Of a stretch of DNA of 64,000 nt, positions 37,705 through 48,696 are shown piece after piece. Every line of letters begins with the position of its first letter. Position 1 is the stretch's first letter. The notes beneath the pieces were generated by a model that did not search any database, had not been told where the DNA came from, and worked only from the letters and a program-made list of their open reading frames with translations. The DNA lies in NCBI RefSeq assembly GCF_028532485.1, contig NZ_CP116942.1, positions 2,108,001 to 2,172,000 on the forward strand, written 5' to 3'. This DNA comes from Iamia majanohamensis (GTDB taxonomy: Bacteria; Actinomycetota; Acidimicrobiia; Acidimicrobiales; Iamiaceae). The position numbers were made by a program, and so were the translations under genes.

Positions 37705-37789
37705 GTCGGAGTGGCGGAATTGGCAGACGCGCTAGCTTGAGGGGCTAGTGCCCGTTAAGGGCGTGGGGGTTCAAGTCCCCCCTCCGACA
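37705..37789 (+). tRNA. tRNA-Leu (anticodon GAG)
   Basis: Acceptor stem GTCGGAG/CTCCGAC with discriminator A (no CCA encoded), D arm with GCG/CGC, anticodon stem CTAGC/GCTAG around loop TTGAGGG (anticodon 37739-37741), long class-II variable arm with stem GCCC/GGGC, and T arm GGGGG-TTCAAGT-CCCCC. The long variable arm fits leucine. The 3' end serves as an integration site for the element that follows. Confidence 0.96.
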
Positions 37790-37790
37790 C
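37779..37790 (+). repeat. tRNA-Leu 3'-end attachment repeat, proximal copy
   Basis: cccctccgacac covers the end of the tRNA gene and recurs exactly at 42065-42076. Confidence 0.55.
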
Positions 37791-38122
37791 GAACCAAACT
37801 CCACGGTGGAGGGGCCGAGGTCGGCCACGACGGTGGACCGATCCGGGTGGTAGGTGAGGGTCAGACCCACGTCTGCGTAGACCTCTGCCTTCTTCGCCGG
37901 GTCTGCGTCGGCGAGGGCCCCGGAGAGGTCCTTCACGGAAAGCACCATGGCGCGCACCTCGTCGGCCGTGAGTGGTTCGTCCGGGCGGGCGTCGGCCAGC
38001 TCGCGCTCCGCACCGGCCCGCTCGCCCCGGACCTCGGCCATCCACCCGGCGACGACCACGGGGTCGGCGTCGGCCTCGAGAGCGGCCCGGTACTTTCCGG
38101 CAAGGACACCGTCCTCACACGA
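37790..38122 (-). pseudogene. C-terminal remnant of a large serine recombinase
   Basis: On the minus strand the frame bounded upstream by a TGA at 38123-38125 reads LAGKYRAALEADADPVVVAG, then EPLTADEVRAMVLSVKDLSG, ALADADPAKKAEVYADVGLT and LTYHPDRSTVVADL. The phrase LADADPxxKAExYxxxGLxLTYxP is characteristic of the C-terminal region of serine integrases in actinobacteria. The resolvase catalytic domain and the zinc-ribbon region are gone. The frame runs on into the antisense of the tRNA, as expected for a recombinase whose gene ends at its own attachment site. Confidence 0.68.
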
Positions 38123-38524
38123 TCAGTGTCCGAGCAACCGGGGGAAGGTCATCCAGTCCTCTGATGGTCGGTTGCCGCAAACACTCAACGGAGCGCGGAC
38201 CGGCTTCGATCAACGCAAGGACCCCAGGGGTGTGTTGGCCGCGTCGGCGGCGAACAGAGGTCGCTAGCACGTATGGTCACGGCATCGACGGAGGAGGGCC
38301 GATGAGCACGGCGCCGCTGGACAACTGCGCCCTGCGCCGTCGCCGTCCACCGTTTCGAGGTCGCTGTGCGCACCCTCGCAGGGAGCTTCCCATGGCCGTT
38401 GGCAGAGCGAGCCGGTCCTCCGCTCCCGCCTCGATGAGCAGTACTGCCCTCGCACCGCCAGCAAGATGGTCGCTGACACGACGATGATGAAGTCTCGCTA
38501 CAACGCCCCAGCATCGAGGTTCGG
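38123..38524. other. 402-bp stretch without a supported gene
   Basis: Frames on both strands are short or Arg/Ser-rich with stops; no motif was recognised. It lies inside the tRNA-associated element and is probably decayed sequence. Confidence 0.5.
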
Positions 38525-39316
38525 ATGACGACCATCGGCGACGAACCGGCTTGGCCCGAGGATTTCCCCGTCCTCGGAGATGGCAACGTCGAGGAGGGCT
38601 TAGTCGTGCTAAGTCGATCAGGCAACATCGAGGGCCGCACGTCGGGGAGCCGCCGACCCTGCGCGACGAGGTCCTGCGACGGCTGGTCCATCGGTGTCCA
38701 ATGGGAGACCGGTCAAATGATGCACCCGTGCTCCAAGGGGTGGACATTCAATCCGTTGACCAAGTCGGTACGCATCACCCATGGTGAGATCTCCGGGCGA
38801 GATCCAGAGCTGTCGCATGACACTCAACCGGCGCCGCGCAACGAATGGCCGTCCAGAGACGAACTTCTCCGCAGGAGTGGTCGGAAAGACTGTCTCCTCC
38901 GCGAGCCCGTTCAGTCCGAGAACGAGCCCGAGCGGCCAGAGCCACGCTGGAAGAGACGCGCCTACGTCGCTGGGGGCGTGGCTCTCGTCACCGCAGTCGC
39001 TGTGGGCGTCGTCGCGTATCTCAAGCAACTGGCGGAGCAGAGCGACGAGGACGATTTGGACGACGACTACGACTCGGCCTTCGCGGACGAGGACGATGAC
39101 GATGATTGGGTCGTCGATCAGGACTTGGCGGACTACCTAGACGAGCAGGAGGAGATCGTGGCGAGATTGATCGTGGAGGTCGAGACGCTCGACGAAGACG
39201 AGTGGCAGGGGCTCTACGACCAGCTTGACCTGGATCACCAGATGAAGGCGAGCGACGATCTTGCGGAGTGGGCGGACGACGCCGTTGGTCACCCGAGCTG
39301 GCGCTCCGACGAGTGA
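38525..39316 (+). CDS. Hypothetical single-pass membrane protein with a highly acidic tail
   Basis: 263 residues if started at ATG 38525; the start is uncertain and the first ~100 residues look poorly conserved. A membrane helix at about 146-167 (AYVAGGVALVTAVAVGVVAY) is followed by an extremely acidic segment of Asp/Glu runs (about residues 172-200, such as DEDDLDDDYDSAFADEDDDD) and a helical, acidic C-terminus ending VGHPSWRSDE. Base composition is lower in GC than the chromosome around it. It belongs to the integrated element; no family recognised. The acidic tail could bind cations or a basic partner. Confidence 0.5.
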   Translation: MTTIGDEPAWPEDFPVLGDGNVEEGLVVLSRSGNIEGRTSGSRRPCATRSCDGWSIGVQWETGQMMHPCSKGWTFNPLTKSVRITHGEISGRDPELSHDTQPAPRNEWPSRDELLRRSGRKDCLLREPVQSENEPERPEPRWKRRAYVAGGVALVTAVAVGVVAYLKQLAEQSDEDDLDDDYDSAFADEDDDDDWVVDQDLADYLDEQEEIVARLIVEVETLDEDEWQGLYDQLDLDHQMKASDDLAEWADDAVGHPSWRSDE

Positions 39317-40106
39317 CCCAGCGCGTGGCGTTGGTCCGACGGCTCCCGCCCCAGTAAGGCGCAGTGCTAACGCGGGGGCAAGGAGTCGTCGGCCCGTCCC
39401 GAGAGGTGGGGCGCGCAGGCGGAGCCTCCTTCCTCCAGGCTTCCCCCAGAATCCGGCGTCCACGCGAACGGCGCCAGCTACACGCCTTCCAGATCGCATC
39501 GCTACCCCTCGCTGCGATCACAGCACCTCTGGTGCCGGTGACGAGCCCCAAGCCCGCTAAGGCGGCAGGACCAACCATCGACCCGGGGAAGATCGGGTGC
39601 TGTCGTAGCACCGAAGGGGACAGCAGACCTCGCTGCGGAACGGCTCGAAGTGCGGCGGCAGAAGAGGAGGGCGAGGCGGACTCGCAAGCGTGACGCAAGG
39701 CGGGCTAGCGGTGCGGCAGTCCCGGTTGATTCCGAGGTGTCCCACGGGCGTTCGGCTGATTAGCCCGGTCTGATCTGACGCTGCTGTGGCTTTCGTACCC
39801 GTGAAGGGGCGCGCGCGTTGCTCCACCTGGGCCGCCGCACTCACCGTCACGGCCCTCTCACGGGGGCTGTCCCTCTGCGCCGACCTCCCGACCAGGACGG
39901 CCACGTTCGACGAGTTTGCCACCGCCGACCAGGTCGCTGTCGAGAAGCCTGCCAGCGGGTGGCGTGCAGCTTCAGCGCGGACGTGGCCCGCACTCAAGCC
40001 GAGCACGTGACCGATCGGGAGGGACTGCCGCCTGGCACGTCGGCGAAGGCCACTCCGTCAAGGCGAACTCCAGCACGCTGTCTACGAGGCACCTACTCTC
40101 GGCCCA
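39317..40106. other. 790-bp stretch without a supported gene
   Basis: Lower-GC sequence inside the element. Frames of 74-149 codons exist on both strands (for example 39786-40010 plus, 39557-40006 minus) but none has a credible start signal, codon bias or motif. Probably decayed genes. Confidence 0.5.
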
Positions 40107-40790
40107 ATGGGGGCCTACACCACTCGAGTGGAGTTCGACCGGGCTCTGCGCGCAGCCAAGGCCAACACAAGATCGATCCGTACCACGCTGGGCGATCGGA
40201 CGCTCGAAGCGTGGGTGCTCCCGGCCTTCGAGGAGGCCCTCGCCGCGGCCAACGAGGACCGGTTCGGCCTGCTGACGGTGATCGGCCGGCCGAGCCTGTC
40301 CAAGAAGCGGGTGCAGTTCGTCTGCGGACAGGACCTGACCGATGTATGGAGCCGGTTCTTCGGAATGACCCCTAAGGGAACGTCGAGCCCTGTGAGCCGG
40401 CCGGCACGGCCGAAGCGGCAAGTGCGCCGACCGGTCGCCCCCGAGCGGCTGCCAGCGAGGACGCGCCAGGGATCGGTCGTGGTCCGGAAGCCGACGTCGC
40501 AAGCAGTCCCCTTGAGGGACGCAGCCTCGCTCATTGACGACGCACTCGCGCGTCGGGCGGCGGAGAAGGCAACTGCGCAGGCGAAGACAGACAAGAACGC
40601 CAAGGGAGAGCGGAGGGCGGACTCTTACCTCGACGGGGTGGTTGCGTGCCGTGAGTGCCTTCGGTCGCAAAAGCGCAGACAGCTCCCCAACCCTCGCAGT
40701 CGGGTGTGCGAGGACTGCGGGGGACAGCCTCCTTCTAGGAGCGTGCGCACGGTCTCCGGCGGAAGCCCGGGTCTCGGTCGCCGGCGGTGA
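40107..40790 (+). CDS. Hypothetical protein with C-terminal zinc-ribbon-like cysteines
   Basis: 227 residues from ATG 40107. The first ~95 residues look folded (VEFDRALRAAKANTRSIRTT, then LEAWVLPAFEEALAAANEDR). The middle is basic and Pro/Arg-rich. Near the end two CxxC pairs, C181/C184 and C201/C204, could bind zinc (ACRECLRSQKR and RVCEDCGG). No family recognised. The basic linker and zinc ribbon suggest nucleic-acid contact, but that is only inference. Codon use is less biased than in the core genes, in keeping with element cargo. Confidence 0.6.
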   Translation: MGAYTTRVEFDRALRAAKANTRSIRTTLGDRTLEAWVLPAFEEALAAANEDRFGLLTVIGRPSLSKKRVQFVCGQDLTDVWSRFFGMTPKGTSSPVSRPARPKRQVRRPVAPERLPARTRQGSVVVRKPTSQAVPLRDAASLIDDALARRAAEKATAQAKTDKNAKGERRADSYLDGVVACRECLRSQKRRQLPNPRSRVCEDCGGQPPSRSVRTVSGGSPGLGRRR

Positions 40791-41092
40791 CGAGGGCCGG
40801 CGCTTGACGCCGCATCTCCAGGTGTTCTGACCCCACATGGCTTGTATCTGTGTGTGCACCCCAGGCCGGAGCTGACCCCGCCGGCGCAGCTCCGTGACCG
40901 GGCGGCATTCATCAAGGTCACGAGGGTTACCGGGCCTGGAGGGCCGCCCAGGACGCCGTGGTGCCCGCTGCGGCGTGCATGGGTGCGCCACCAGGGGCCC
41001 ATGGGCCCGGGCAGTCAGGGCCGCTGGGCCGGTGCCCGCACGGCCGGTGTACGGGGCGGCGCGGCGGGCTGAGGGTCCACCGTCCTGGGGTG
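40791..41092. other. 302-bp intergenic stretch with two palindromes
   Basis: No gene seen. cggagctg (40867-40874) pairs with cagctccg (40887-40894) across 12 nt, a possible terminator for the preceding gene though without a T-run. gggcccatgggccc (40995-41008) is a perfect 14-bp palindrome. Confidence 0.55.
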
Positions 41093-42016
41093 GTGAGCGA
41101 CGAGACTCCCGACGTGGCCTCCACCGTCAAACTCCCCCTCGTGTCTGGCGTGAAGCTCGGCTTCGACTCGGTCGCCGGCGTGGCCGGCATCAACCCGGTC
41201 AAGATCGCCGGCATCGACAAGATGGTCGAGAAGCTCGCTTCGCTGGGTACCGGCTTCGATTCGGGGATGGCGGCCAAGTTCGCAGACGTGAACACCATGA
41301 ACCTCGCGGCGGGGCGCACCGCGTTCGCCCGGACCCAGGAGTGGGTCGCCGAGCTCTGCAGGGTGGAGGCGAAGCTGTTCGGCCCGATCGTCGATTACGA
41401 GGCGATGGGAACCAGCTCCATTCAGGCGCTGGGTGACCTGGTCTCCAAGCCGTTGGGGTCGAGCGTCGTGGCCACCTGGGCCGAGGAGCTGGGCCCCATG
41501 CCGGGGCCGAAGGCGACGGAGGCGTGGGCGAACTTGGCCGGGCCGACCTCCTCGCATCGCTCCGCCGTCCAGGAGTTGCTGAAGACCATCGGGTTCGACG
41601 CCGTTGCGGGCGTGACACGTGACCTCGGCCTGCAGGCGACGCAGGCCATGAAGGAGGTCGGGATCTTCGACTTCGCCGGCGCGTCCACTGGCTCAGAATC
41701 AGTCGCAGGGGCGTGGGCGGCCCTCTTCGACCAGGCTGCCGCCGAAGTTGCTGACCTACTCGACCCTTTGGCGGACCCTGCCGCCCGGGGCAAGGTGCAG
41801 ATCCGTTGCTTGAACGCCATCGCGGAGTTCAGGCATCTGACTCCCTCCCAGTGGGTCGCCCTGGTCGCCATTCCCGTCGAGGCGTACCTGCTCTATGCGA
41901 TTGAGGTCCCAGACCCACGACTCGCAGCCCTGAGCTGGGCCGTCTTCGCGGCCACCGTCGTCGGCTTGATCATGAGCTTGGACGAAGGTGCACAGCGGCG
42001 GCGGTACGGCGCCTAA
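41093..42016 (+). CDS. Hypothetical protein with C-terminal membrane hairpin
   Basis: 307 residues from GTG 41093. The N-terminal ~240 residues are soluble, Ala/Gly-rich and probably helical, without a known motif. Two hydrophobic segments close to the C-terminus (TPSQWVALVAIPVEAYLLYA and LAALSWAVFAATVVGLIMSL) form a probable membrane hairpin, after which only ~12 residues remain. The gene ends about 50 bp before the distal attachment repeat, so it is the last gene of the element. Earlier in-frame starts exist, but the upstream sequence is palindrome-rich and unlikely to be coding. Confidence 0.6.
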   Translation: MSDETPDVASTVKLPLVSGVKLGFDSVAGVAGINPVKIAGIDKMVEKLASLGTGFDSGMAAKFADVNTMNLAAGRTAFARTQEWVAELCRVEAKLFGPIVDYEAMGTSSIQALGDLVSKPLGSSVVATWAEELGPMPGPKATEAWANLAGPTSSHRSAVQELLKTIGFDAVAGVTRDLGLQATQAMKEVGIFDFAGASTGSESVAGAWAALFDQAAAEVADLLDPLADPAARGKVQIRCLNAIAEFRHLTPSQWVALVAIPVEAYLLYAIEVPDPRLAALSWAVFAATVVGLIMSLDEGAQRRRYGA

Positions 42017-42064
42017 CCCACCAACGGCAGCTCCGTTGTCCATGTGGGGTTGGGGTGTTGCTCG

Positions 42065-42076
42065 CCCCTCCGACAC
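42065..42076 (+). repeat. tRNA-Leu 3'-end attachment repeat, distal copy
   Basis: cccctccgacac, identical to 37779-37790. The bases before it (ggggtgttgctcgcccc) can fold like a degenerate T arm, as if more of the tRNA end was once present. Confidence 0.55.
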
Positions 42077-42241
42077 CACCACGACCAGGGCTCGGCGCCC
42101 TGGTCGTTGCGCGTCAGGCGACGTGCGGCGTCGCCCGACGGACCGGTGCGGGGGCCCGCGCCGGAGGGTGCCGCCGGTCCCCGGCCCGCCTGCGCCCGGC
42201 GGTCCAGCGAGGGAAGGCTGGCGCCTGCCAGGCTGCCGGCC

Positions 42242-44540: not shown

Positions 44541-44706
44541 GACGCTGGCCGCGCCAGGTCCCGGCGATGACCGAGGGTGGAGGGGATCCCGCACCGACGG
44601 GGTCGTCGACCAGCGACCGAAGCCGACCGCGGCACGCGGTCGGCCCACCACATGGCGCGGTCGGATGTGGGAGGCTCCCCGCACCCCCGAGGCCAGGGAG
44701 ACACCC

Positions 44707-47700
44707 GTGCGCCATCCCCTCCGGTCCCTCGTCGCCGCCCTGGCGGCGGCAGCCATCGTGGTCCCCGCCCCCGTGGCGAGAGTGGGCGCGGCCCCGCCGA
44801 CCCCGACGCCGCGTGCCGTGGCACCCCTCGACAACCCGACGGTCGACGACTCCTGCGGGATCGACGTCACCCTCCTGCTCGACGCCTCCGGCTCCATCGG
44901 CTCCTCGGAGGACGAGGTGCGGGGGGCCGGCGAGGCCTTCCTCGACGCCCTCGCCGACACCAGCTCCACCGCCCGCGTGCTCGACTTCGGCACCGTCGCA
45001 CGCGAGACCGCGCCGGCGACGCTGGTCACCAGCGAGAGCGTCGCCCCCGGAGGGGTGCACCGCCAGGCCCTCGACGCCTACTACCACCCGAAGCCGCCGC
45101 TGCAGCCCGGGGTGACGGGCCACCGCTACTCGGGCGGCGACCCGCAGTCGGAGTCCAGCTACCGCACGGGCTCGGACCCGCAGTACACGAACTGGGACCA
45201 GGCCCTCGACCTGGCCGGCGACGAGCCCGACGAGCTGGTCGTCTTCCTCACCGACGGGGAGCCGACGGCCCTCGACTCCGACCAGCCCGGCGACCCCTTC
45301 CACTCCGCCGGCCAGGACCCGCCCGACGTCCGCTACGGCACCGACGGGAGCAGCGCCGCCCGCGACCTGACCCTCGACCGGGCGGTGGAGGAGGCCAACG
45401 CAGCCAAGCTGGGTGGCGCCCGGGTCCTCGCGGTGGGCGCCGGCAGTGCGTTCACGTCGAGCGATGCGGTCACCCGCCTGAAGGCCGTCTCGGGCCCCCA
45501 GGTCGCCTACGACGCCCAGGACATCACCGACCTGAACAGCGTCGACGTGGCCCTCATCGAGGACTTCGACGAGCTGGCGGTGGCGCTGCGCCGGGTGGTC
45601 ACCCAGCTGTGCTCGCCCTCGCTCACCATCCGCAAGCTGGCCCAGACCCCCGACGACCCCGCCTACCAGCCGGCCGAGGGGTGGGACATGACCGTCGAGC
45701 CCGTCGTCAGCACCGCCGAGGACCCGCCCTACCGCTGGATCCTGCCGACGGCCGGTGCCCCCGTGGGCCCGCAGTCGGCGACCACCGACGATGATGGCTT
45801 CGCCGGGTTCCAGTGGGAGCCGGACCCGGCCACGTCCTCGTCGGTGGCCACGGTGACCGAGGCGGTGGAGCCGGGGTACGTCCCGCGCGACTACTCGTGC
45901 CAGTCCAAGCAGGGCGACGGCACGGTGACCACCACGGAGGGGCCGCTCGACCCCGACGACCCGACGTTCGCGCTCCCGGTCGGTCCGGAGTCCATCGTGA
46001 CCTGCACCCTCCGCAACGACTTCACCTACGAGCCCGGCATCGCCATCACCAAGGTCAACGACCCCCCGTTGGTCCGCGGTGACGGGGGTGGTGAGACCGT
46101 GACCTCCACCTACGAGGTCAGCAACACCGGCAACGCCCCCATGGCCCTCACCACGCCCGTCGACGACCGGTGCGCGGGGGTCACCTACGTCTCCGGCGAC
46201 GTCCCGCCGACCAACTCGTTGCTCGACGTGGACGAGACCTGGACCTACACCTGCGACCGGGTGGTGCAGTCGGCCCTCACCGACCAGCCCGTGAACGTGG
46301 TCAACACCGTGACCGTGGCGGGGCGCGACCCGGAGGGCACCCTCCGCACCGCCACCGCCCAGGACGACGTGGACGTCATCACCCCCGACATCGTGATCGA
46401 CAAGTCCGTCGACCAGACGGTGGTCCTGCCGGGCACGCCGGTGACCTACACCTACGCCGTCCGCACCGACGGGAACGTGGGGCTGACCGGGGTGGCGCCG
46501 ACCGACGACACCTGCGCCCCGCTGACCTACCAGGCCGGCGACGGGGGGACGGTCGGCTCGCTCGAGCCGGGCGAGGTGTGGACCTACACCTGTGGCGCCA
46601 CCATCGACGTGGAGACGCTGAACACGGTGACCGTCGAGGGCACGCCGCCACGCGGAGCGGTGGTGCAGGACTCCGACACCGCCCTCGTGCGCGTCGACGA
46701 CCCCGACCTGCGCCTCACCAAGGACGTCAGCGACGACCAGGTCTTCCCGGGCACGCCCGTCGACTACACCTTCGTGGTCACCAACCCGAGCCAGTCGATC
46801 CTCGAGCCGGTGCCGGACCGGGCCGGCTTCGTCCAGGACGACCGGTGCCCACCCGTGTACGACTCCGGCGACGTCGGTGACGACGAGATCCTCGGCCCCG
46901 GTGAGTCGTGGACGTACCGGTGCGACGGCGTGGCCATCGGCGACGACACGCTGAACATCGCCCGGGTCGACGCCTACGACGCCGAGGTGGATGTGACCCT
47001 CACCCGGCGGGCGGCGGCCCTCGTCGAGGTCCTCACCCCGCAGATCGCCATCCAGAAGGTGGTCTCGGATCCTGTGATCTACAGCGGGGACGACGTCACC
47101 TACACCTACGAGGTGACCAACCCGGGCGCCACGGACATCGACGGCACCTTCGTCACTGACGACCGGTGCGCCCCGGTCACCTACACCGGAGGCGACGACG
47201 GCGACGGGCTCCTCCAGCCCGGTGAGCTGTGGACCTACGAGTGCACCGCGACGCTGACCAAGGGCGACCCCAGCGGACCGCCCGAGACGGTGGTGAACAC
47301 CGCCGACGTGGTGGGCACGGCCACCCTCGACGGGGTCACCGGACGCCAGGTCACCGACCGCGACACCGCCGAGGTGCTGCTGATCGAACCTGTGCTGACC
47401 CTGGTCAAGGAGGCCGACGCCACCGAGGTGCGGGTCGGTCGGCCCGTGACCTGGACCGTCACCATCACCAACACCGGTGACTCGCCCCTCGTCTACCTGG
47501 CCGAGGCCGACACCGACTGCAACCCCTTGACGTACCAGTCCGGTGACGTGGGGGACGACGGCGTGGCCGACGTCGGCGAGGCCTGGGTCTACACCTGCAC
47601 CGAGCCCCTCTTCGAAGACCGCACCAACACCGCGGGTGTCATCGGCCTCGACGTCCTCGGCGGGACGCTGGTCGCCAGCGACCCCGCCACCGTGACCGTC

Positions 47701-48696
47701 TACGACGCCGACATCGACCTCGAGAAGAGCGTCGACCCGCAGCTCCTCCCCGAGGGCGAGGTGGCCACCTACACCTTCGTCGTCACCAACCCGGGCACGG
47801 ATCCGCTGACCGACGTGGGGATCGCCGACACCGACTGCGACCCGCTGACGTTCCAGTCAGGCGATGACGGCGGCGACGGGGTGCTGACACCAGGGGAGGT
47901 GTGGACCTACACGTGCACGGCGACCATCGACACCGCAGGGGTCAACGTGGCCGTCGTGCTCGGCCGGGACCACCTGGGCCTGCCGGTGGTCGCCGGGTCC
48001 GCAGCCGCCGTCGTGCCCTACCGGGCCGGCATCGCGGTGCAGAAGTCGGCCGAGCCCACTGCGCTGGTCGGTTCCGGCGAGGTCACCTACTCCTACGCGG
48101 TCACCAACACCGGCGACGTCCCCCTGGCCGACGTGGTCGACCAGATCACCGACGACACCTGCGCACCGGTCACCTACGTCGGCGGCGACGACGACGGCAA
48201 CGGCCTGCTGACCGGGGAGGGCGACCTGTTCGAGACGGGACCGCCGGAGACGTGGACCTTCACGTGCGCCACGACCGTCGACCGGGACACCACCAACACC
48301 GTCACGGTGACCGGCGACCCGGTCCGACCCGAGGCCGGGGGCCTGACGCCCCTCGGGCCGGCGGTGACCGCCTCCGACACCGCCACGGTGGTGGTCACGG
48401 TGCCCCCGACGACCCCGCCGACCGACCCGACCGATCCGACCGACCCCGACGGCCCGCGGCCCCCGGCGGTCGATCCGGCCGGCGGTGACCGCCCGGTCGG
48501 GCCCGCAGCGGTCGGCCTCACCGACCTCCGCGGGGACGGCCCCGGCGACGTCGGGTCGGACACCTCGCCGTCGGGGTCGCCCGGCGCGCTGGCCCTGACG
48601 GGCGCGGGCCTCGCTCGCCTGCTGGCCCTGGCCCTGGCGCTGGGCCTGGGGGGCCTGGTCGCCCTGCGGGCGCGCCGCCGCCTGGCCGGCGGGTAG
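44707..48696 (+). CDS. Sortase-anchored surface protein with VWA domain and seven DUF11-like repeats
   Basis: 1329 residues. A signal peptide covers about 1-29 (LVAALAAAAIVVPAPVARVG). A VWA domain spans about 50-310 with MIDAS D59, S61, S63 (LLDASGSIGSS) and VVFLTDGEPT. An Ig-like SpaA/prealbumin-type segment (~310-440) follows, then seven repeats of ~95-115 residues, each starting like ITPDIVIDKSVD and carrying a Cys in (D)DxCxPxTY and a second in WTYTC. A TPPTDPTDPTDPDGP linker leads to LALTG at 1295-1299, a hydrophobic helix and RARRRLAGG, a class-E sortase signal. GTG 44707 follows gggaga. It is an adhesin-like stalk on the cell wall. No sortase is encoded nearby. Confidence 0.9.
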   Translation: MRHPLRSLVAALAAAAIVVPAPVARVGAAPPTPTPRAVAPLDNPTVDDSCGIDVTLLLDASGSIGSSEDEVRGAGEAFLDALADTSSTARVLDFGTVARETAPATLVTSESVAPGGVHRQALDAYYHPKPPLQPGVTGHRYSGGDPQSESSYRTGSDPQYTNWDQALDLAGDEPDELVVFLTDGEPTALDSDQPGDPFHSAGQDPPDVRYGTDGSSAARDLTLDRAVEEANAAKLGGARVLAVGAGSAFTSSDAVTRLKAVSGPQVAYDAQDITDLNSVDVALIEDFDELAVALRRVVTQLCSPSLTIRKLAQTPDDPAYQPAEGWDMTVEPVVSTAEDPPYRWILPTAGAPVGPQSATTDDDGFAGFQWEPDPATSSSVATVTEAVEPGYVPRDYSCQSKQGDGTVTTTEGPLDPDDPTFALPVGPESIVTCTLRNDFTYEPGIAITKVNDPPLVRGDGGGETVTSTYEVSNTGNAPMALTTPVDDRCAGVTYVSGDVPPTNSLLDVDETWTYTCDRVVQSALTDQPVNVVNTVTVAGRDPEGTLRTATAQDDVDVITPDIVIDKSVDQTVVLPGTPVTYTYAVRTDGNVGLTGVAPTDDTCAPLTYQAGDGGTVGSLEPGEVWTYTCGATIDVETLNTVTVEGTPPRGAVVQDSDTALVRVDDPDLRLTKDVSDDQVFPGTPVDYTFVVTNPSQSILEPVPDRAGFVQDDRCPPVYDSGDVGDDEILGPGESWTYRCDGVAIGDDTLNIARVDAYDAEVDVTLTRRAAALVEVLTPQIAIQKVVSDPVIYSGDDVTYTYEVTNPGATDIDGTFVTDDRCAPVTYTGGDDGDGLLQPGELWTYECTATLTKGDPSGPPETVVNTADVVGTATLDGVTGRQVTDRDTAEVLLIEPVLTLVKEADATEVRVGRPVTWTVTITNTGDSPLVYLAEADTDCNPLTYQSGDVGDDGVADVGEAWVYTCTEPLFEDRTNTAGVIGLDVLGGTLVASDPATVTVYDADIDLEKSVDPQLLPEGEVATYTFVVTNPGTDPLTDVGIADTDCDPLTFQSGDDGGDGVLTPGEVWTYTCTATIDTAGVNVAVVLGRDHLGLPVVAGSAAAVVPYRAGIAVQKSAEPTALVGSGEVTYSYAVTNTGDVPLADVVDQITDDTCAPVTYVGGDDDGNGLLTGEGDLFETGPPETWTFTCATTVDRDTTNTVTVTGDPVRPEAGGLTPLGPAVTASDTATVVVTVPPTTPPTDPTDPTDPDGPRPPAVDPAGGDRPVGPAAVGLTDLRGDGPGDVGSDTSPSGSPGALALTGAGLARLLALALALGLGGLVALRARRRLAGG

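Follow-up and report, generated by a model that had tools for sequence, protein, structure and literature searches.

Integration into tRNA genes by serine recombinases has been termed rare. In the part of their paper that deals with such cases, Ghinet et al. (2011, PMC3218068) describe eight serine recombinases of Mycobacterium that share a single tRNA-Leu gene and belong to actinomycete integrative and conjugative elements (AICEs), and they name phiRSM1 at tRNA-Ser as the sole other case known to them. Here we describe a degenerate integrative element at the tRNA-Leu(GAG) gene of Iamia majanohamensis, an actinobacterium of the order Acidimicrobiales, together with the family of large serine recombinases (LSRs) from which its remaining recombinase fragment derives. 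The element lies in a 64,000-nt stretch, hereafter the window, of a 4.58-Mb single-contig genome (G000:2108001-2172000). It occupies positions 37791-42064 of the window and runs from the 3' end of the tRNA gene to a 12-bp distal copy of that end.

The Mycobacterium AICEs and the relatives of the Iamia recombinase share a serine recombinase, a tRNA-Leu target and actinobacterial hosts. As far as the description in section 6 of PMC3218068 goes, the anticodon and a frame through the attachment core are not mentioned. Serine-integrase prophages and satellites of Mycobacterium (PMC10654092) are likewise actinobacterial integrated elements, defective remnants included; however, in the portion of that account drawn on here, the named tRNA sites belong to tyrosine integrases, and the serine-integrase satellites are said to integrate elsewhere. 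Two other systems, compared through parts of their descriptions, place an attachment site within a gene. In the integration-dependent repressor of phage BPs (PMC4557955), attP lies in a coding region and integration alters the C-terminus of the protein. There, the protein is a repressor whose viral tail is a degradation tag, whereas here it is the recombinase, and the sequence of its tail is not conserved. In archaeal suicidal integrases (PMC8371274), the attachment site is also part of the integrase gene. Those enzymes are of the tyrosine family and their gene is split by integration, whereas here the gene stays intact as far as the core and integration changes just its end. In the open-licence PMC literature, judged mostly from search listings, we recognised nothing on recombinase frames that cross an attachment core into a tRNA.

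Evidence for insertion at tRNA-Leu(GAG)

The element is bounded by two exact copies of CCCCTCCGACAC, the first of which is the 3' end of the only tRNA gene that ARAGORN detects in the window. The distance from core to core is 4286 bp (Table 1). The recurrence of the tRNA 3' end, pointed out in the initial annotation, is therefore exact. It is also hard to obtain by chance: 0.10 copies are expected in the window, and none of 100 shuffles of the window reached two. Across the 4.58-Mb genome the sequence occurs five times, always on the forward strand, and a reversed control gives one match. The 3-kb loci around the other three genomic copies contain no tRNA.

The decisive evidence for the insertion comes from the tRNA terminator. 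Starting 2 nt past the distal repeat is a hairpin terminator, CACCACGACCAGGGC, with arms CCACGACCAGGGC and GCCCTGGTCGTTG and a net 11-bp stem. A similar hairpin is found within 15 nt of only 3 of 4000 random window positions, and the sequence directly 3' of the window's own tRNA is without one. In relatives, a strong hairpin lies no more than 15 nt past the tRNA end at 6 of 14 loci (L046, L051, L052, L053, L057 and L058). When the 34 nt past the distal repeat were compared with the post-tRNA flanks of L051 and L053, their score was reached by none of 3000 random window 34-mers. The flank that follows the window's own tRNA is unremarkable in the same comparison, since 1913 and 2156 of 3000 random 34-mers score as high. 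In G002, a genome of the same genus, the gene order on the left (GH20-GNAT-tRNA) is kept, with 67% and 64% identity, and a hairpin terminator stands directly past the tRNA; its counterpart in the window stands past the distal repeat, 4286 bp away. Because the terminator directly follows the tRNA in relatives with an empty site, and follows the distal repeat here, we conclude that a 4286-bp insertion parted the tRNA from its terminator.

The locus thus combines an intact tRNA, a copy of its 3' end at the far border and an empty site in relatives, the last of which the initial annotation had proposed to look for. The empty site rests on the terminator and on the left-hand gene order; the right-hand gene order does not contribute. 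Together, the duplicated core, the displaced terminator and the recombinase homology described below bear out the proposal that a decayed element occupies this tRNA gene.

The recombinase remnant

Directly beside the tRNA, on the reverse strand, is the C-terminal stub of an LSR. At ~37799-38119 (-), the translation aligns with residues 445-543 of a 551-aa protein from genome G011 at 46% identity (E = 5.8e-22), or at 47.5% over 99 aa in a second comparison. This G011 protein, a recombinase with Pfam Resolvase, Recombinase and zinc-ribbon domains, ends at the same tRNA. This match to a protein with all three domains identifies the tail as an LSR remnant. The recombinase tail noticed earlier from the letters alone is therefore real, and it can now be assigned to a type that was not visible then. 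The stub corresponds to the last ~100 residues of the enzyme, and residues ~1-443 are gone from the window. The stub itself has no Pfam or PHROGs match and is placed through its full-length kin; as a C-terminal stub without the Resolvase, Recombinase and zinc-ribbon set, it is filed as a remnant and not as a working LSR. Its frame passes through the core, continues for 15 codons past the core start and ends inside the tRNA.

A comparison of the 4.3 kb with 17,206 open reading frames (ORFs; 70 residues or longer) of the fetched loci revealed no other recombinase relic (E <= 1e-7). The genome likewise holds no second recombinase of the LSR family beside the tail at E <= 1e-20. A 57-bp DNA match had raised the possibility of one near G000:2208467, but the best E there, 0.21, lent it no support. 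Because the catalytic domain is missing and the genome has no second recombinase of the family at that threshold, the element should, judging from its sequence, be unable to move itself and be fixed in place.

A quick tree puts the window tail in a group of 14 rows, mostly from Acidimicrobiales or Acidimicrobiia, with L139 as its nearest relative. The SH-aLRT value of 93 is below the 95 mark, no well-supported group contains the tail, and its placement is not firm. Four loci (L160, L190, L194 and L205) have internal stops in plain translation; they were left out of the tree and kept in all locus counts.

Related recombinases share one tRNA target

A seven-row recombinase alignment was searched against 84,980 species genomes, and the best 80 of 510 relatives, representing 79 loci, were kept. 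None of these 79 loci is from Mycobacterium. We find tRNA-Leu(GAG) at the 3' end of the recombinase gene in 55 of the 79 loci (ARAGORN), always convergent with it, and no other tRNA at that position in any locus. All flanks of the kept loci taken together contain only four other tRNAs. The stop codon of the recombinase lies within the tRNA at 45 of the 55 loci; the frame reads through the tRNA at seven, and the contig ends first at three. The remaining 24 loci lack a full tRNA, but 22 of them have the core at the recombinase end; in a control stretch taken from within the recombinase gene, 0 of 24 have it. At two of them, tRNA-Leu(GAG) lies ~9.5 kb further on, as elements in series would give.

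Serine recombinases of the order that are less closely related have other tRNAs at their ends: tRNA-Arg(CCT) in L089 and tRNA-Glu(TTC) in L099, with tRNA-Met nearby in L083 and L097. The targeting of tRNA genes may predate the Leu(GAG) clade.

Intact relatives have the same core at the same tRNA. Eight elements with two cores, the window element included, have core-to-core lengths of 13978, 13809, 13175, 8927, 4286 (window), 4254, 772 and 679 bp. In G204 (L120, G204:C232:16000-35900), two recombinase-bearing copies stand in tandem, 13,978 bp apart, and share a core, so that the inner junction displays the attP arrangement directly, inside a chromosome. The two shortest stretches between cores at tRNA-Leu(GAG) are those of G022 (772 bp, L063 8298-7526) and G045 (679 bp, L134 2084-2763), which indicate that decay or accretion at this site has been repeated. 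No convincing second core was found in the stretches fetched from G029, G062, G158, G068, G206, G046 and G144, where it may lie further out.

Recombinase frames have no stop before the core

Among the 77 loci with a core (the 79 kept loci minus L178, whose contig ends 33 nt after the match, and L192, in which no core was found), not one recombinase frame stops before it. For the last five codons before the core, shuffling predicts 17.5 loci with a stop, against none observed. The log10 P of finding no stop is -8.9 if the loci are independent, which their kinship makes untrue. In the other two frames of the same DNA, a stop is present in 40 of 154 cases. The shuffle and the other-frame counts suggest that DNA make-up is not the sole reason for the open frame, and that translation is the level at which it is maintained. 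Furthermore, at 56 of the 79 loci the last query residue aligned by tblastn is 545 or lower, which means that openness further on was not a condition of their selection.

The residues added past the core are not themselves conserved, since the recombinases run into the tRNA in each of the three frames (22, 20 and 13 loci) and the tails at 22 core-only loci, reaching from 4.7 to 146.3 codons past the core start, differ in sequence. By excision in silico, the recombinase would become 17 aa longer in G011 and 15 aa longer in G116. A tail end resembling a degradation tag was considered as a general feature and rejected: the excised G011 protein ends in LAA but that of G116 in DIG.

The simplest reading is that the enzyme cannot do without the residues that precede the core, and that a core fixed by the tRNA would leave no space for a stop. 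A bolder reading is that this LSR clade, dedicated to tRNA-Leu(GAG), lacks a stop codon ahead of the crossover because its C-terminus serves as a switch, comparable to that in the phage BPs repressor (PMC4557955). In the integrated state the tRNA would write the C-terminus, and after excision the other end of the element would do so; the change of tail would then help to set activity or stability, and so sense whether the element is in or out. This bolder reading goes further than a need for the C-terminal residues and is unproven at the level of sequence comparison. The three entry frames and the unlike lengths and sequences of the tails count against it, and we consider it doubtful.

Cargo genes and composition

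Three genes remain between the recombinase stub and the distal repeat (Table 1). They had been described as orphans, which fits orfB and orfC but not orfA. Residues 9-121 of orfA are 49% identical to proteins in three genomes of one genus (g31); these relatives are uncharacterised 196-aa proteins with CxxC pairs (L113, L114 and L115). In 198 genomes of the order, the Iamia genome included, orfA has nine matches, of which three are strong (E < 1e-30) and two moderate. The same genomes give eight matches to orfB, of which the best apart from its own reaches E 2.6e-4 in a frame interrupted by a stop, and three to orfC, the other two at E ~0.002. Among 396 genomes of the phylum, orfC again has three matches including its own, the other two being weak and partial. 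No match to orfA or orfB was confirmed in viral contigs, and none to orfA was found in plasmids; orfC has none in phages and no pattern match in viral contigs. Neither orfB nor orfC has a protein-family match of note, and the structure model of orfC (mean pLDDT 36.5) is unusable.

Table 1. Features of the degenerate element at tRNA-Leu(GAG), in window coordinates
Feature	Position	Strand	Basis and remarks
tRNA-Leu(GAG), integration target	37705..37790	+	ARAGORN; sole full-length match in own genome
C-terminal stub of LSR	37748..38122	-	Homology; last 15 codons in tRNA antisense strand
attL core CCCCTCCGACAC, tRNA 3' end	37779..37790	+	Exact 12-bp repeat
Left attP arm, element side of attL	37791..37830	+	Arm complementarity; resembles same place in kin
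orfA	38525..39316	+	Paired-Cys domain, also in 196-aa proteins of genus g31, followed by hydrophobic stretch and acidic tail (last two read from translation)
orfB	40107..40790	+	No convincing relatives; two C-terminal CxxC pairs, by eye
orfC	41093..42016	+	No convincing relatives; alternative ORF start 40958
Right attP arm, partly complementary to left arm about core	42030..42064	+	Arm complementarity
attR core CCCCTCCGACAC	42065..42076	+	Exact 12-bp repeat
Original hairpin terminator of tRNA, displaced by insertion	42079..42109	+	Hairpin and flank alignment

The window ORFs include no transfer or replication gene of the FtsK, relaxase or Rep families, and the element is not classed as an AICE or an integrative and mobilizable element. 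No phage structural or packaging gene was recognised, the window ORFs matching nothing in PHROGs more strongly than E 0.04, and it is not classed as a prophage or satellite. PADLOC assigns none of its families to the three ORFs, and it is not classed as a defence island.

The cargo of related elements is mixed. A TrwC relaxase is present in G116 and also in Nocardia araoensis (L185), where it lies upstream of the recombinase. Terminase-like domains were seen in G011 only, and G204 has a cytosine methylase and an HNH protein. In G197, the element of 4254 bp, which has kept a full recombinase, carries replication-relaxation and NYN domains. In Streptosporangium carneum (L166 5066-7582), the recombinase is preceded upstream by genes with RapZ-C/NUDIX and NUDIX/Pycsar-effector (Pycsar-type membrane) domains, possibly a defence cargo. 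This variety suggests that the recombinase module is common to several kinds of element.

The GC content of 500-bp segments is 0.62-0.72 inside the element and mostly 0.70-0.83 outside, where a few are at ~0.69. GC at third codon positions (GC3) inside the element is 0.779 (38525-39313), 0.797 (40107-40787), 0.870 (41093-42013) and 0.855 (recombinase tail), compared with 0.962 +/- 0.045 for 32 outside ORFs picked by a crude gene caller that misses genes. The distinct composition proposed for the element genes is therefore seen as a lowered GC3, with the reservation that orfC and the tail are below 29 of the 32 outside ORFs and not all of them. The gaps without genes at 38123-38524 (402 bp), 39317-40106 (790 bp) and 40791-41092 (302 bp) are exact between ORFs. 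Gap size alone does not discriminate the element from its surroundings, since 10 of 30 gaps found outside by the same crude caller also exceed 300 bp. For the same reason, the claim that gene density returns to normal at once beyond the borders is not supported by these counts.

To the right of the element, at 44665-48693, the window encodes a 1343-aa repeat-rich protein that looks secreted and has a hydrophobic, Arg-rich, anchor-like end (read from the translation by eye).

Proposed history and alternative explanations

We consider it very probable that an element with a serine recombinase inserted at tRNA-Leu(GAG) and then decayed and became fixed. In the proposed history, an LSR-bearing element would have recombined its attP with the 3' end of the tRNA gene. 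The insertion would have left the tRNA whole, with element DNA directly after it, and would have pushed the tRNA terminator beyond the duplicated 12-bp core. The doubled core, the shifted terminator, and the homology and position of the recombinase are shown by the sequence, and the crossover is inferred from them. By the plan seen in kin, its recombinase gene would have aimed at the tRNA with a frame that crosses the core, taking its last codons and stop from the DNA beyond, which in most kin is the tRNA antisense strand. Later loss of DNA would have removed recombinase residues ~1-443 and, as intact kin suggest, any transfer and replication genes, so that the C-terminal stub and three cargo-type genes would be what remains.

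Several observations weigh against this history. The flank alignment with G002 is weak (117 of 3000 random 34-mers equal it), and only the hairpin agrees. The right-hand genes (GDPD, esterase and DUF11-like) lie beside this tRNA in no relative examined, and the right border therefore rests on the repeat, the terminator and the arms. Right-flank synteny was tried as proof of that border and set aside: relatives of the GDPD gene exist within the family (51-56% in G019, G021 and G022; 49% in G003), none of them at this tRNA, which is neither proof nor refutation. The arms were examined by joining the ends of the eight two-core elements in silico and measuring arm complementarity about the core. 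In the first, broader shuffle test, two of the eight elements fell below 0.05, the window element had P 0.07, and its right end paired better with the left end of another element (16) than with its own (13). In a second test, which ranks each joint among all positions in its locus, seven of the eight were below 0.05 (window 0.012; G001 0.098), with offsets picked after the first result was known. The window ends are thus compatible with halves of one attP, inverted about a short core, to which these tests lend mild support. Finally, only the tail and orfA matched any of the 17,206 ORFs of the fetched loci, so the kind of element cannot be told.

Three alternatives were weighed against a decayed serine-recombinase element. 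The repeat might be a matter of chance in a fast-changing but normal intergenic zone with odd genes, in which nothing was ever inserted. The 12-mer does occur repeatedly in the genome, and the right-hand order is not conserved at the tRNA; however, the displaced terminator in our view refutes chance, two cores within 64 kb were never reached by shuffling, and kin elements carry the same core at both ends. We give this explanation almost no weight. It is also very improbable that a tyrosine integrase brought the element, with the serine-recombinase tail left by a second element at the same site. Two published accounts, in the parts drawn on here, name tyrosine integrases as the main users of attB sites in tRNA genes (PMC10654092; PMC3218068). 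Elements also do stand in series at this tRNA, as shown by a second core past the first element in G011 and by two recombinase tails in series in G001. Yet the sole recombinase trace here is of the serine type, with a frame that enters the attL core as it does in kin. Moreover, no tyrosine-integrase family was matched among the scanned window ORFs, and the window has just one internal border candidate that carries the core.

Alternatively, the 4.3 kb could be a compact cargo cassette, kept as such and moved in trans by the recombinase of another element. Such a cassette would be in keeping with the presence of both cores and both arms, with the conserved residues of orfA over 112 aa and with the like size of the G197 element, though that one has a full recombinase. 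The stub, however, is truncated, the genome has no recombinase of the family but the tail at E <= 1e-20, and there is no close copy of the element elsewhere in it. We therefore judge a mobile cassette improbable, and favour decay of an inserted serine-recombinase element.

Implications for the recombinase family

Taken alone, the window element is an ordinary fossil island, a case of ordinary decay. The lead beyond this fossil is the type of its enzyme, together with the rule that the recombinase frame has no stop of its own. Serine recombinases from many actinobacterial families have one fixed target, and their native site can be read from 55 loci. Serine integrases are sought as tools for genome integration, and a tRNA target is unusual among them. 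The absence of a stop before the core throughout the family calls for an explanation, which may be either a C-terminal end that the enzyme needs or a tail that reports integration.

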